From the NCBI GenBank assembly GCA_025024175.1, contig QCXZ01000041.1, positions 35,149,786 through 35,213,785 on the forward strand: a stretch of DNA of 64,000 nucleotides, written 5' to 3'. Below the pieces are notes generated by a model. It made no database searches. It was not told the origin of the DNA and saw only the letters and a program-made list of their open reading frames with translations. The stretch's first letter is position 1; each line of letters opens with the position of its first letter. Shown piece after piece: positions 421 to 46,870 of this stretch. Origin of the DNA: Rhyzopertha dominica (Eukaryota > Arthropoda > Insecta > Coleoptera > Bostrichidae). A program made the translations under genes and the position numbers.

Positions 421-628
421 CGTTGAAGGTCGCCCAATAGAATGTCTGTTCCCGTAAAAGCTCTGTGACTAGGGTTGCCAGGCCTCCTATTTTCAATATG
501 AGTCTCCTATATTTTTACACAATCTCATATCTCATATTAAGCAGTTAAAGATGATACAGTTCTCGTGTATTTTGAAAAACAATTGTTTCGATTTAAAATT
601 CTGCGAAGTGACATGGTATGTATAGGTA

Positions 629-1093
629 TTGCGCATGGCTGATAGGGTATTGCATTGCATTGGTTTGATTTTTCCGAAAATAATTTTTGTAGCGTTTTCA
701 CAAATAGAGGCTTGTATAAATAAAATACAAAATCAACGTCTTTGTGATTCAATTAATATAAACGAAATTTTCGATGAAAATAATATTTTAAATAAAATAT
801 ATAATTTATGCATTAAAGAAAGCGAGAAATGGGTGCATATTTTAGCAAAAAGTTCCGAATTGTCCAACATAGGTAGAATAATTGCTTTTTTACTCGGTAT
901 TCCTTGTACAACAGTATATCTTGAACGCATTTTCTCAATAATGTCAAATAAGTGGACAGAATCGAGAAATAAAGCTTACGCTCAAGTTATAAAAAGTGCA
1001 TTTTCCATAACGTTGAATTACAAGATGCTATTTACTGAATTTTACAATTATGTTTCGAATGGTGGTGATTTGCTAACTAAATGTCCTAGTTAG
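629..1093 (+). pseudogene. hAT transposase C-terminal dimerisation region
   Basis: An open frame of 154 codons whose second half reads FLLGIPCTTVYLERIFSIM followed by SNKWTESRNK and a final hydrophobic helix. This matches the hAT-family C-terminal dimerisation domain (consensus: a Pro, then ERxFS, then R at fixed spacing). The first half (residues 1-80) is not diagnostic but is consistent with the region before the dimerisation domain. The zinc finger and DDE core are absent upstream, so it is a 5'-truncated copy. The frame is open over its whole length, which suggests moderate age or domestication, but nothing around it looks like a host gene. AT-rich 3' sequence with AATAAA-like signals follows (about 1195-1220). 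No terminal inverted repeats were found. Confidence 0.8.
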
Positions 1094-21959: not shown

Positions 21960-22400
21960 ATGTTCGCGTTTTGGCGGTCCCTTTAAATATTCACATTTTT
22001 AATATTAAAAATACACCTTACGATCCATTTTTTCGAATTTATAAGCTGCCGCAGCTGTTTTGTGGATTAGATGCTACCTATTAATATGCAATTTAATAAA
22101 ATATAAATACATGGCAAATACCCAATTGAGTCGTAAGCTTTTTGGTAATCTATCCCTGCTACTGCTATGTTTCTGCTTTCTATTTGTGCTCGTTTTGTTA
22201 TCGCTCTATTTATTATAAGTTCTTCCTTGCAACATTTAGCATCTTTTGTGCACCCTTTCTGTTCTTCGTGTTCGATATATTGATGTGTTATGTTTAGTTA
22301 TTTTTTCGGGTACAGTTTTTGTGATTATTTTATATATGTATTTAGACATGTGATTGGTCTATAGTTTTTGGGTTTATGTGTGTTTTCATTTCCATGTTGC
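21960..22400. other. no recognised gene
   Basis: T-rich DNA between the THAP element and the hammerhead repeats. Nothing supported. Confidence 0.6.
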
Positions 22401-22415
22401 CTGCGTCAAAACAAT

Positions 22416-22457
22416 CTGTGGACAGCTGCTTCGGCTTATAAAGCCTCCTCAACACAG
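22416..22457 (-). ncRNA. hammerhead ribozyme motif H1 (type I, core mutated)
   Basis: Read on the minus strand: stem I CTGTG (22457-22453), core TTGAGGA (expected CTGANGA, so C3 is T), stem II GGCTTTATAAGCC (5 bp, 3-nt loop), core GAA, stem III GCAGCTGT, C17, then CACAG pairing with CTGTG. Predicted cleavage lies between 22421 and 22420. The C3 change breaks the C3-G8 core pair and should abolish or strongly lower activity. The near-palindromic stem III suggests a dimeric active form. Confidence 0.7.
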
Positions 22458-22580
22458 CTATAGTCCCAACTCAGACACCACGGCATCTATCTGGCTTGCC
22501 TTATATAGATCTAGTGGCAATACGGTATCATTCGTACGTACAAAATTACGTCTATGCCATGTCGGTTCCGTCAATACAAT

Positions 22581-22622
22581 CTGTGGACAGCTGTTTAGGC
22601 TTATAAAGCCTCCTCAGCACAG
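22581..22622 (-). ncRNA. hammerhead ribozyme motif H2 (type I, G12 mutated)
   Basis: Read on the minus strand: stem I CTGTG, core CTGAGGA (fits CUGANGA), stem II GGCTTTATAAGCC, core TAA (expected GAA), stem III ACAGCTGT, C17, then CACAG. Cleavage would be between 22586 and 22585, exactly 165 nt from the H1 site. G12 is the general base of the reaction. Its change to U should inactivate this copy although all stems are perfect. Confidence 0.75.
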
Positions 22623-22901
22623 CTATAGTCCCAACGCAGACAACACGGCATAGATCTGGCTTCCCTTATATACGCCAAGGCAGGCGATGTGTTTGCGAGA
22701 ATTACAGTGTTGATGACACCATGCCATCCAGTGGCAATACAGCATCATCCAGTCGTCTCCGTGGAGAACTAATCTGAACCGCAGCCCACTATGTTGTGGG
22801 CGTTTAAAAGCCGGCAGACGTTCCTTGACGACGATTTCTGCAAAAGATGAAGTTCTAAAGCATAATAATAAAAAAATTACGTCTGTGTCATGTCGTTGGG
22901 A

Positions 22902-22943
22902 CTATGCTGATGAGGCATTATAAGCTGAAACAGCTGTCCACAG
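22902..22943 (+). ncRNA. hammerhead ribozyme motif H3 (intact core)
   Basis: On the plus strand: stem I CTATG, core CTGATGA, stem II GGCATTATAAGCT, core GAA, stem III ACAGCTGT, C17, then CACAG. All invariant core bases are present (C3 U4 G5 A6 G8 A9, G12 A13 A14, A15.1-U16.1). Predicted cleavage is between 22938 and 22939. Weak points: one A-C mismatch in stem I (6 bp shorter than in H1/H2), one A-A mismatch and a closing G-U in stem II. The 8-nt stem III strand is a perfect palindrome, fitting cleavage as a dimer. Confidence 0.75.
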
Positions 22944-23081
22944 ATTGTTTTGTTGTATTTTTTGTTTGTTTGATACATATGTTGCCGATCACCCTTCGAA
23001 CTGCATTACAGGTATCTGCATAAATATACGGATTTCTGTAGCAGTATGTGGATTTCAAGGTCTACGTTGATCATTTGCAGA

Positions 23082-24040
23082 TTACCGATTTTCTCCTGCA
23101 GCACCTAGTATAATGGGCACAATTTTGGCTTCATCTAAACTCCACATCTGAATAATTTCGTCTCGCAAAGGTAAGTATTTATTAATTTTTTCGTTGTTGG
23201 TTCTAGCGATGTTTTCAGGGAGAGTCACAGCAAAATCCACAACAAAGGCACATTTCTTTTTCTTGAAAAAAAGTACCATATCCGGTATATTATTTGGAAT
23301 TGGTCTGTCGGCAGCTATTTGTCGGTTCCAGTAGAGTCGAACCTCATCAGTCTCGCACACGGGGGGAGGCTGGTATTCATAATGCGGCACTTTGGGAGCC
23401 AAGATTGTACATCCCGCTATAATGGGCTCTACATACTCTTCTTTTATGCCACACATTGTACATTTACTGGGTACCTACCTCTCTATGACCAAGTATTCTG
23501 TTTTTGTAGGCTTGATGGCAACCACTTGGTCCTGAGTGGCCGCAATGAAGCCTTCTGTTTCGGCAAACAAGTTTTCATGCCGAAGGTACGCTATCGACGC
23601 AACACTATCTATGCATTCGCTCTCGATGGTAACTAAGTATTTTCCGTGTAGAGCCTTACCCCTCCACTTCTGGAGTTGCTGCTCAGGCGTTGGTACGGCA
23701 TCATTGGGCTTGTAGGATATCCGCAAGCCTCAGCGGTGTAGCTTTATGGTCTATGTTGATTATCGCTCGCTTTCCTGACCTTTTATGGGAAAATATCTTC
23801 TTAGATTATGCACTTGTTTGTAATTCTTAGCCTTTAAGTCCGGTATACCCCTGCCTCCAAATCGGCGCGGCAGGTGGAATCACCGACGATTGTGGGTGAT
23901 GCGCGTGATGTTATTGAAACAGCTTCCTGATATTCCTATTTAGTTCCTCCAGTTCCATGTCAGTCCACTTGATGATGCCAAAACTGTACGATATGGCGGG
24001 TGCTGCCCAATTGAGTTCTTAATAAAGCATAGGAAAAAAT
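23082..24040 (-). pseudogene. LINE with restriction-like endonuclease, ORF C-terminal part
   Basis: Reverse-strand reading, from 24040 down: SFGIIKWTDMELEELNRNI, then GGRGIPDLKAKNYKQVHNLR, then KWRGKALHGKY, ETEGFIAATQDQ, a Cys/His segment (CGIKEEYVEP...GCTILAP), LYWNR and NIPDMVLF, ending MWSLDEAKIVPIILGAAG. This is the C-terminal region of non-LTR retrotransposons of the R2/R4/Dong kind. The PD and following D (D codons at 23282-23280 and 23237-23235) are 14 residues apart, matching the PDX12-14D endonuclease motif. Frameshifts separate at least three blocks, and the reverse transcriptase lies outside or is lost. A premature stop joins the 23475-23726 block to the next. Dead copy, 3' end facing the hammerhead repeats. 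Confidence 0.85.
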
Positions 24041-26250: not shown

Positions 26251-27289
26251 TGAAAAACATAGAAACACTAGTGCGGGAATATCCAATAAAAACTTACATT
26301 ATCGCCGCCTTCATCCGTGGGTCATAACAATGCGGTCACTCTGGTGGACAGACAAGGCGGTTTCACATATGCGCGGGAGATGCAAAAACAAAACATAAGT
26401 TACTCATCCGTTAAACTCAAACAGATACATTTAAGACTCACAGAGGGGTTTTCACCCCAGGGCCTCATCCTTGTCCTGTCTATGGCTTCATCCCTGAGAT
26501 TACATCATTAGTCAATGGTGGTTATGAATACCTTGTTAGTTTTCTTTCTTCAACAACTAGCTAGTGTCAACCTGAAATAGTAGAGGCTTCCCCGAACACT
26601 CACCCTACGGCCTATAGGGTCGCATTCCAATAGCCCGGATCGGGGGCACCTAATAAGGCTACCCTCTCCACCAGAACTATGTCATTCGAGCAGCCCGCAT
26701 TACCCCCCGGAATGCAAGTCACCCACTCGAAGGAACCACGGCTGTTAACCGGGCACTCTGCGCTAGGGGTTTAAAACTGCCTGAGGCACATCATGGCCAA
26801 AGACCTTACTCTCACTGCCTGAGGCACATCATGGCCAAAGACCTTACTCTCACTGCCTGAGGCACATTATGGCCAAAGACCTTACTCTCACTGCCTGAGG
26901 CACATCATGGCCAAAGACCTCGCTCTCACTGCCTGAGGCACATCATGGCCAAAGACCTCGCTCTCACTGCCTGAGGCACATCATGGCCAAAGACCTCGCT
27001 CTCACTGCCTGAGGCACATCATGGCCAAAGACCTCGCTCTCTCAGAGCCAAAATCAAGAACATTTCTCTCTCTGTCAAAAATGACACATCAATACTCATT
27101 GCCTACTTTTGCATCTCCTCGCGACGCTGATATTTCTCTCCAAAACAATTAATCGCACGCATACGCATTCGCTTAGATTTTAGTATTTATCTTATTAGCA
27201 GCGATTCTAAACATAGCAAGAAGTTAATAAACGTACAAAAACACCTTTTATTTTAATATTAACGCAGATACAAAAATTGACATTTAACA
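26251..27289. repeat. left terminal repeat (LTR-like)
   Basis: It contains a 64-codon plus-strand frame near the start, shared with the right copy but with no known domain. A C-rich central part follows, then seven 38-bp units (26776-27041), then an AT-rich end with AATAAA near 27228. Against the right copy there are single-base changes near 26341, 26606, 26632 and 27254, plus one in the last minisatellite unit. Confidence 0.85.
26776..27041 (+). repeat. 38-bp minisatellite, 7 units
   Basis: The unit is ACTGCCTGAGGCACATCATG followed by GCCAAAGACCTTACTCTC. Units 1-3 end TTACTCTC, units 4-7 end CGCTCTC. Unit 3 has CATTATGG. The first half holds the near-palindrome GCCTGAGGC. Confidence 0.95.
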
Positions 27290-28380: not shown

Positions 28381-29148
28381 CTACGACTTAGACAAATTCA
28401 ATTGAAGGTCATGTTCAGCAGACAATTTTCTTAATTTTTCAAGTTCTTTGTTCAGAATTTTGTCAGCCCTTGCGAAATCATGCTTATCGAAACTAAAATA
28501 CAACTGTGTATAGTCGGCGTAAGTTATTATTCTACAATGACGAACTGTGTTCACTATACCCGATGTATATATTATGAAAGGCAGAGATCCAAATATGGAG
28601 CTTTGCAGAAAATCAGAACTAACTGATAATTCAGAGGAGACACTATATTTATTTTACCACTTGGGTTCTATCGCTCAAGTAAGATCTAATAAACTGTACC
28701 GACAAACTGCTGAAACAGTAAGACTTTAGTTTGGCACATAACAGACCATGATTAATAGTATCGAACGCTTTTGAAAAAAATCGAGCAAAATCAAAGCACT
28801 GAGTAAACCTTTTTCATATGCTGACATGAGATCATTAATGACTGAAGCTAGTGCAGTAGGAGCGCTTCGACCGCGTCTGAATCCACACTGAGCATCTGAA
28901 TGATTTTCCAACAAAAGACAGTCAGATATCTGTTCGTAGACTAGAGATTCAAACAGTTTTGAAGCTGCAGGTAAGATGCTAATCAAACGTAAATCCGACA
29001 AGTTTTCAGGGTTAGACTTTTTAAGTAGAGGTATTGCGATGACTTTCTTCCACATTGCAGGGAAATAAGCTTTGTCGATACAACAATAATTGAAGACATG
29101 TAATAGGTATAAATCAATAATGGGAATATATAAGCGCAACATTTTCAA
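28381..29148 (-). pseudogene. LINE reverse transcriptase remnant
   Basis: Blocks run FPAMWKKVIAIPLLKKSNPE, LRLISILPAASKLFESLVYE, GFRRGRSAPTAL and ALILLDFFQK (finger and palm), then FGSLPFIIYTSGI and ITYADYTQLYFSFDKHDFA, then LSAEHDLQLNLSKS before an in-frame TAG at 28383-28381. The catalytic box of this family is (F/Y)ADD. Here it is YADY (28521-28510), so the second Asp is lost. The A motif keeps its first Asp (LLDF). Confidence 0.85.
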
Positions 29149-29428
29149 CGAGATGTTGTCTTTGCCACAATTATCTTTTTTGCGTTAGAGTGTGCGGTGT
29201 ACCACTTCTAAGGTAACCATTCTCCAGGAACATTCTTGTAGGGATGGGAATCGAGCATTCTCATAATATTGCATTCTATGATTAGAGCTGATATTATTTA
29301 ATTGTAAAAAACTGTGAAAAATATGCATTAATGGAATTGCTATTAGATAGGTTAGAAGGTAATTCAGATCAGACTTTGATAGTACCACTGTTTAATTTGC
29401 GCAGAGCCGACCAAATAGTGTGTATATC

Positions 29429-31627: not shown

Positions 31628-32590
31628 TGAAAAACATAGAAACACTAGTGCGGGAATATCCAATAAAAACTTACATTATCGCCGCCTTCATCCGTGGGTC
31701 ATAACAATGCGGTCACTCCGGTGGACAGACAAGGCGGTTTCACATATGCGCGGGAGATGCAAAAACAAAACATAAGTTACTCATCCGTTAAACTCAAACA
31801 GATACATTTAAGACTCACAGAGGGGTTTTCACCCCAGGGCCTCATCCTTGTCCTGTCTATGGCTTCATCCCTGAGATTACATCATTAGTCAATGGTGGTT
31901 ATGAATACCTTGTTAGTTTTCTTTCTTCAACAACTAGCTAGTGTCAACCTGAAATAGTAGAGGCTTCCCCGAACACTCACCCTAAGGCCTATAGGGTCGC
32001 ATTCCAATAACCCGGATCGGGGGCACCTAATAAGGCTACCCTCTCCACCAGAACTATGTCATTCGAGCAGCCCGCATTACCCCCCGGAATGCAAGTCACC
32101 CACTCGAAGGAACCACGGCTGTTAACCGGGCACTCTGCGCTAGGGGTTTAAAACTGCCTGAGGCACATCATGGCCAAAGACCTTACTCTCACTGCCTGAG
32201 GCACATTATGGCCAAAGACCTTACTCTCACTGCCTGAGGCACATCATGGCCAAAGACCTCGCTCTCACTGCCTGAGGCACATCATGGCCAAAGACCTCGC
32301 TCTCATTGCCTGAGGCACATCATGGCCAAAGACCTCGCTCTCTCAGAGCCAAAATCAAGAACATTTCTCTCTCTGTCAAAAATGACACATCAATACTCAT
32401 TGCCTACTTTTGCATCTCCTCGCGACGCTGATATTTCTCTCCAAAACAATTAATCGCACGCATACGCATTCGCTTAGATTTTAGTATTTATCTTATTAGC
32501 AGCGATTCTAAACATAGCAAGAAGTTAATAAACGTACAAAAACACCTTTTATTTCAATATTAACGCAGATACAAAAATTGACATTTAACA
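31628..32590. repeat. right terminal repeat (LTR-like)
   Basis: Same as the left terminal repeat but with five minisatellite units instead of seven. Outer flank is ATCC (32591-32594). The inner flank reads CCCCACACCTGAA, which is not purine-rich. Confidence 0.85.
32153..32342 (+). repeat. 38-bp minisatellite, 5 units
   Basis: The units match those of the left terminal repeat, with units 1-2 ending TTACTCTC and 3-5 CGCTCTC. The last unit begins ATTGCC rather than ACTGCC. Two units fewer than the left copy. Confidence 0.95.
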
Positions 32591-45799: not shown

Positions 45800-46870
45800 T
45801 CAGGTCAGGTGATGTCATTTCGCACCATGATGTCGGAGTCTTTTAAGCGGATGTTTTTGTGATTTCAATTAAGTGTTTGGAGTTGCATATATGGTGTTCA
45901 GACCTTCCTACGTGTTGTTTTAACAGAATTGTCAAGTGCTTTGCTAGCTGATAAGTTGGTGACACGATGGCACTTGCAATAGGTCGCAATGTATTTTTAA
46001 AAGCCCATAAAGACGAAGTGGTCGGCTGTCGGATGGTTGTAGTCGTTTAATTCGCTGCTGCTCCCAATTGGACTCGTTCAATAATTGGATCATATTCTTC
46101 TCCATTGTAGAGGTTGGGTTCCGTGGTAACATCTTGTAGGTGTCGGTCGTTAATAAACTTTTGATTTTCTCCTCATACTCGGCTGCGTCTAGAACAACTG
46201 TGGCATTTCCCTTGTTCTCTGGTAGTACGATTATATCCGGGTTGGTTCTCAGTTCACATAGTGGTGTCCTTTCTTCTCTAGTAATATCGCATTTTGGTTT
46301 CTTGGCTTTACGCAATACTCTGCAGACTTCCTGGTATAACTCTTCTGCATCTGTAGGGCTTAGTTCTAGCAAGGATCCTTCAACATTGCCAATTATCTCC
46401 TCCTTTGGAATCGTATGGGGCGTAATGGCAAAGTTGTTTCCTTTTGTGAGGACAGCCACAGAAACTTCCGGTACAGTTGCCTTACTATATTTGACGATAA
46501 TTTTCTGTGTCAATTGTCTGCGATTGTGTCTATTGGCTGTATTCATTTCCAAATTGCTGAATTTACGGATTTGTCGTATCGTTGTAATCATATGTTCATT
46601 CTCTGCCGCCTGGGCTGTCATAGCGTCAATCTTCTCTCACCAGCCGTTGTCCACGATTGATCCCAGATGTAGCTGAACGTTGTAAGGTTTCCGCGATGTA
46701 CAATCTAGTCCTTTGTGAGTAATTTGTTTATGCAGAAGAGCTTGGCATGCCCTGTCATAGATCCTCACCACTGAGAATGTCGTCAGCGACGTACAATGAA
46801 ACGTTTGCATATAATCGATTCCATGGGCCATGGCAGAAGACATTTGGACATAAATCTTTTGTTCCATGCT
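45800..46870 (-). pseudogene. Penelope-like element, N-terminal and reverse-transcriptase start
   Basis: A 225-codon minus-strand frame (46621-45944) contains FAITPHTIPKEEII, EVCRVLRKAKKPK, NPDIIVLPENKGNATVVLD, YKMLPRNPTSTMEK and RIKRLQPSDSRPLRLYGLLK IH. These are the conserved blocks at the start of Penelope reverse transcriptases (LP.DKGN..V, KRL.PSD..PPRLYGLPKIH). In the next frame TYQLAKHLTILLKQHVG, EHHICNS and then IRLKDSDIMV follow down to about 45810, after which similarity stops before the YADD-type box. Upstream, 46860-46640 has RIYDRACQALLHKQI. Catalytic motifs are absent, so the copy is dead. The open first frame suggests it is younger than the plus-strand Penelope piece at 16 kb. 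Confidence 0.85.

Follow-up and report, generated by a model that had tools for sequence, protein, structure and literature searches.

The closest described systems are the non-LTR retrozymes of animals and the Penelope-like elements (PLEs) found with them. As described in the main-text portions of the papers cited here, animal non-LTR retrozymes are tandem non-coding units of 170-400 nt with type I hammerhead ribozymes and low G+C, present in many copies in genomes that also harbour PLEs (Cervera and de la Pena 2020, PMC7229834). The copies published there are direct tandems, and the same source describes hammerhead repeats of newt and axolotl with units of about 330-350 nt and a very short stem III, which in one axolotl group has two pairs and a tetraloop cap. 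PLEs were proposed as the movers of animal retrozymes on the basis of shared features and co-existence (PMC7229834, PMC7761336), and the proposal has been restated (PMC8969392). The purified Anolis PLE protein is reported to cut and extend both target strands, to favour AT-rich DNA and to begin reverse transcription at two internal sites, with the genomic tail lying between them (PMC11167929). Rotifer PLEs are reported with head-to-head pLTRs, duplications of 8-10 nt and an optional 31-bp tail at one of the inverted pLTRs, and the authors of that work preferred self-priming on an antisense template (PMC3846280).

To set against these systems we analyzed a repeat in a 64,000-nt stretch of the Rhyzopertha dominica genome (C41:35149786-35213785), here called the window. 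A sequence-only reading had proposed three hammerhead motifs, two in tandem on the minus strand at a spacing of 165 nt and one inverted; repeat comparison and a family covariance model found all three at 22392-22952 (Table 1). The minus-strand copies at 22392-22507 and 22557-22672 are direct repeats with 89% identity, and the inverted match, at 22902-22952, is 51 nt long. The insertion is a decayed copy of a retrozyme family, non-autonomous and non-coding, with a unit of 323 nt. RNAs of 165 nt from this copy and about 220 nt from an undeleted monomer had been predicted; the undeleted unit is 323 nt (median, n = 30), and the 165-nt spacing is a deletion product, because one unit lost the two segments given in Table 1. 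The left end of the insertion lies near monomer position 29 and the right end near position 14, so placed that both tails look truncated versions of the T46-side end described below. A target duplication was sought in the flanks of the insertion and no clear one was found.

Table 1. Coordinates of the retrozyme insertion, the Penelope-like fragment and the family B sites (window positions unless a locus is named; m, position in the 323-nt monomer).
Feature	Position	Strand	Basis
Whole retrozyme insertion: two minus-strand units and an inverted plus-strand fragment	22392..22952	.	repeat comparison, family model
Outer tail, m1-29	22392..22420	-	mapping to monomer
Hammerhead 1 core (C3 to U, A15.1 to G); predicted cleavage site between 22421 and 22420	22421..22452	-	
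Remainder of deleted unit; about m41-157 and m182-237 missing	22421..22545	-	
Start of next unit, m1-40, reaching the T46 region (L048:3332-3371)	22546..22585	-	
Hammerhead 2 core (G12 to U); predicted cleavage site between 22586 and 22585	22586..22617	-	
Near-complete unit, m22-323 (L048:3372-3681)	22586..22895	-	mapping to monomer
Inverted arm with hammerhead 3; predicted cleavage site between 22938 and 22939	22894..22952	+	
Decayed Penelope-like reverse transcriptase fragment, outside the retrozyme	45843..46636	-	
Family B sites	L018:3546-3661, L019:74-205, L038:3951-4082, L042:915-1047		

Several other features were seen in the window. About 130 bp from the retrozyme lies a 130-aa open frame (23082-23474, minus strand) that by eye resembles the C-terminal end of a retrotransposon protein. 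Two separate minisatellites (26776-27041 and 32153-32342) have a common 38-nt unit. A hAT transposase dimerisation domain match at 626-1093 (plus strand, E = 2.5e-4) falls just below the Pfam cut-off, and a reverse transcriptase fragment at 28726-29184 (minus strand), LINE-like by eye, also matches below the cut-off (RVT_1, E = 8e-5).

The covariance model was made from 56 family sequences that included both minus-strand units of the window, and it gave these units 145.8 bits (22540-22669) and 120.8 bits (22375-22504). The inverted site (22894-22955, plus strand), which lies outside the training alignment, scored 44.2 bits. None of the three hammerheads passed a strict type I scan. The two minus-strand cores carry the substitutions listed in Table 1, labelled by the usual hammerhead numbering. 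The inverted hammerhead has intact core letters, one mismatched pair in each of stems I and II, and a 6-nt gap adjoining stem I. Its stem II (GGCAUUAUAAGCU) also differs from that of the other two sites (GGCUUUAUAAGCC), contrary to the claim of a single stem II in all three. Activity of the window copy is doubtful. An Rfam search, the check named in the sequence-only reading, returned no match in the whole window at the gathering threshold and none in region 22000-23300 at E up to 1. The predicted hit was thus missing; this silence does not refute a hammerhead, because better-kept family copies also fell under the Rfam cut-off (26.6 bits versus 48.5 for RF00008), and Rfam was dropped as a deciding test since its sensitivity to family copies was too low.

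To define the family, here called family A, the 479-Mb genome was searched with two queries. With the window copy, the best 40 of 1446 first-look candidates were scored and 40 regions taken; with a tandem copy, the best 40 of 1634 were scored and 20 regions taken. One region (L076) that only extends another and has no match inside was left out, giving a total of 59 loci including the window's own, which are top scorers and not a random draw. Family A is a dispersed retrozyme-like repeat with one to three units per fetched locus. Its 30 complete units have a range of 294-331 nt around the median of 323 nt and a mean G+C of 46.6% (range 44.2-48.8%), and neighbouring same-strand units lie 299-331 nt apart, the window copy being the exception. 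An attempt to explain the unit as an old duplication of two halves was rejected, as the similarity between them was no higher than in shuffles. The unit length and the G+C fit the ranges of animal non-LTR retrozymes (about 170-400 nt and below 50%). The type I core CUGANGA..GAAA..UH is present in 23 family A hammerheads that passed the strict scan across 40 fetched regions, and is absent in intact form from the three in the window; the existence of a retrozyme family in this genome, as had been proposed, was borne out in this respect. Family A has a stem III of two pairs, as in the one axolotl group, and resembles the newt and axolotl repeats in unit length and short stem III; its likeness to known retrozymes is one of described features.

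The copies have decayed, with a divergence of 5.8% from the majority sequence (83 segments, first 40 loci). The core bases are kept among genome copies, as the sequence-only reading required, with an identity of 0.949 in 12 core columns compared with 0.943 in 90 other columns (52 family A sequences). This near-equality indicates plain decay after insertion and no selection on each copy, and within-family conservation of the core was rejected as a sign of function because there was no excess. For the same reason, changes between families were used as evidence for the fold. A sibling hammerhead retrozyme family (family B; Table 1) first surfaced in the flanks of family A loci; it has a unit of about 353 nt and the same long stem I in different letters, and it gave 3910 first-look candidates, more than family A. 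Alignment A1 holds 52 family A and 4 family B sequences, obtained from 76 near-full matches by removing 7 opposite-strand echoes and 14 others and adding L018 by hand. Across both families, 92.8% of cells were paired compared with 21-44% in slid controls, and changes on both sides of a pair occurred in 28 cells compared with 5.7 in shuffled and 6-15 in slid controls. Pairs with such changes numbered 10 of 31, above the shuffles (4.9) and not above the slid controls (5-13), and most of the cells changed on both sides divide family B from family A. The predicted stem I consists of five pairs, an internal loop and 19 pairs. In circular folding predictions, at least 12 of the stem I pairs form in 28 of the 30 complete units.

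The inverted hammerhead of the window is no local accident. All 37 neighbouring inversions in the 59 loci are head-to-head and none is tail-to-tail, and this recurrence points to the insertion mechanism. Of 96 3'-type outer ends, 73 fall inside two zones at monomer positions 33-54 and 207-220, which cover 36 of the 323 positions and define two end points: T46, which lies 46 nt past the cleavage site and shortly after the end of the predicted stem I, and T217. Many T46 ends were mapped to m40 because the reference copy diverges just beyond that position. In every locus with both ends in the zones (23 of 23), one T46 end was paired with one T217 end, and no like pairs were seen; the expected share of mixed pairs under independence is 0.48, and the probability of 23 of 23 under random pairing is 6e-8. 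The zones were set after the first 40 loci, and the 19 later loci, found with the other query, contributed 6 of the 23 mixed pairs and no like pair. One further locus (L073), mixed by eye, is split by an insertion and was excluded from the count. In the other 36 loci, T46 was accompanied by a 5'-type end in 14 and by a different 3' end in 6, T217 by a 5'-type end in 3 and by a different 3' end in 4, and neither end lay in a zone in 9. Round the unit, T46 and T217 lie 152 or 171 nt apart, and circular folds would place them in a common loop in 12 of 30 related copies, compared with 5% of random equidistant pairs. Family B shows the same orientation, with all 13 inverted clusters listed head-to-head by eye. 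Its end pairs, also by eye, were mixed in four clusters, probably mixed in one, alike in three and ambiguous in five, and L043 resembles one more like pair; pairing of one T46 with one T217 was therefore rejected as a general law, since family B violates it.

The two arms of a locus appear to come from one RNA. In the first 40 loci, derived letters were shared at 0.0082 per site between inverted arms and at 0.0082 between tandem units, compared with 0.0030 between different loci (Fisher 8e-10, from non-independent pairs). The inner joints were variable: in 26 joints from these loci the plus arm begins at 25 distinct positions, the two with an equal start carry different filler, and some joints have filler while others overlap. 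These locus-shared variants and differing joints indicate that a single RNA source gave rise to the inversions at the time of insertion. Target duplications were clear in a minority of loci. The longest common string of the two flanks reached at least 9 nt in 5 of 23 loci (span 9-13 nt) compared with 1 of 506 cross-locus controls, and at least 7 nt in 11 of 23 compared with 17 of 506; animal retrozymes have duplications of more than 4 bp when these are present. The first 10 bases beyond the mapped ends were 72-79% A+T compared with 64% in the loci, the T46 value being inflated because several alignments stop a few bases short, and A+T was 68-69% at 20-40 bases outside the ends. No poly(A) tail was present at the 54 outer ends listed.

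This arrangement sets family A apart from animal retrozymes as published, which are direct tandem copies (PMC7229834). The main-text portions of PMC7229834 make no mention of retrozyme pairs that lie head-to-head and have two fixed 3' ends, and the arrangement is so far undescribed for retrozymes in the main texts of the literature searched. It is matched by PLEs, whose described features include head-to-head copies, two alternative 3' ends, short duplications and a type I hammerhead (PMC11167929, PMC3846280). PLEs differ in coding for a reverse transcriptase and a GIY-YIG endonuclease, an open frame for which the family A unit is too short, and in having ends about 31 nt apart.

We also examined the PLEs of this genome. 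The part of the window PLE fragment at 45944-46636 matches the PLE protein from locus L052 with 40% identity across 210 aa, and that protein carries an RVT_1 domain (2.4e-16); the part at 45843-45943 was assigned by eye only. Pfam, NCBIfam and PDB sequence searches with the fragment yielded nothing useful, and the sole find of a protein search was a distant relative (36% over 70%) with Pfam and PDB matches that look like chance. Among the best 150 of 1493 candidates found with the fragment, seven close pairs were head-to-head and none tail-to-tail (by eye). One family, PLE-1, has copies about 99% alike along most of their length (L077-L081), three of them with 810-aa open frames. Its protein matches RVT_1 (E = 8e-11), with no GIY-YIG domain reported by Pfam, and the named proteins closest to it come from a ladybird (46%) and from Anolis carolinensis (45% identity over 96%). 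PLE-1 copies have two alternative ends, one close to the start codon (-8 to 0) and one 28-39 nt into the open frame; of 20 end windows, 17 could be assigned (12 to the first site, 5 to the second) and 3 had no match. In the three head-to-head PLE-1 copies with both ends seen (L077, L078, and L100 with L101), the two ends were always of different kinds. In L078, two head-to-head copies 99.6% alike form a 4.5-kb near-perfect palindrome (L078:1613-6155) with a 10-nt target duplication, GTGTCAACAA; the likeness of its arms suggests recent PLE activity, and PLEs in this genome have apparently been active recently. A second PLE family (L102, L103, L105-L107) has an apparent minimal PLE hammerhead over the start codon and ends at +132 in four of six windows, at +101 in one and at +89 in one, including ends 31 nt apart; five of the six windows run into TA repeats. 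A T46 profile ranked the first PLE-1 site 3-10 of 2642 and a T217 profile ranked the second 5-10, with crosswise ranks of 820-1363 and 162-258. In the second PLE family, T217 ranked one site 9 of 2847, and the other three comparisons gave 47-288. A block test of the start sites gave fractions of 0.056 and 0.039, and 0.37 and 0.93 crosswise. These comparisons are no more than suggestive of a likeness between T46 and T217 and the start sites of PLE-1.

Our main reading is that a PLE-type enzyme copies retrozyme RNA starting at both edges of a single break, giving a head-to-head insertion, and we put its probability at roughly two in three. The type I hammerhead would split read-through RNA at GUC^CACAG, and the resulting 323-nt pieces would be circularised. 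A PLE enzyme would then cut both target strands and extend both 3' ends on the retrozyme RNA. Synthesis would begin at T46, just beyond the long stem I, for one target end and at T217 for the opposite one. Each cDNA would grow towards the 5' direction of the RNA, sometimes for more than one round, until the two met mid-insertion. The resulting insertion would be head-to-head, its two outer ends fixed and its inner joint variable, and a short duplication of the target would flank it. A more specific version, which we hold only tentatively and with somewhat less than even confidence, is that animal retrozymes are satellites of PLEs, one RNA circle being copied simultaneously from both break edges by a dimer of the PLE enzyme, each subunit at its own fixed site (T46 or T217), with the two sites mimicking the PLE's own pair of start sites. 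By analogy with the rotifer elements, self-priming on an antisense template may possibly apply to retrozymes too.

A different enzyme is the best of the alternatives, and an unlikely one. LINE machinery could mobilise the element, with the inversions arising by twin priming of the L1 type, where the second target end serves as a primer at an internal site of the RNA being copied. Twin priming likewise yields inverted 5' segments from one RNA, and the window holds the LINE-like fragment described above; against this, both outer ends prefer fixed 3' positions and the ends listed carry no poly(A) tail. Head-to-head pLTRs and 8-10 nt duplications are moreover reported for rotifer PLEs (PMC3846280), and the PLEs of this genome are alike. 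The repeats might instead be solo pLTRs of an autonomous PLE, with no separate retrozyme, which we consider improbable. PLEs do bear type I hammerheads and head-to-head pLTRs, as the apparent minimal hammerhead at the start codon of one resident family illustrates. However, family A units adjoin directly at about 323 nt. PLE loci L049-L056 showed no real similarity to queries from retrozyme families A and B (best E = 0.74), and a search of L052 and L077-L081 with the family model gave nothing at E up to 0.01. The family A hammerhead also has a stem III of two pairs, said to be missing from the minimal PLE form (PMC7761336).

It is very improbable that this is a satellite-like repeat which owes its spread to recombination or to a DNA foldback mode, with the hammerhead as a passenger. 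Hammerheads are known in repeats named satellite DNA (PMC7229834) and the decay within the family looks neutral, but the family lies scattered in short copies, of one to three units in the fetched loci; the copies end at preferred points, their inner joints differ and some have target duplications. A chance match to the hammerhead pattern, for which the lack of an Rfam match in the window could be cited, is already contradicted by 60 shuffled versions of the window (first-order Markov), none of which gave a strict-scan match, and by the compensatory changes between families.

As evidence for the copying of retrozyme RNA by a PLE-type enzyme, the marks that a copying enzyme leaves in the outer ends and at the mirror-image joint are of a type other than co-occurrence. 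The arrangement names two start sites and candidate PLEs in the same genome, and the kind of assay it points to has been published for a different PLE. The arrangement also offers a simple test for other genomes, namely whether their retrozyme copies lie head-to-head with fixed ends or not.
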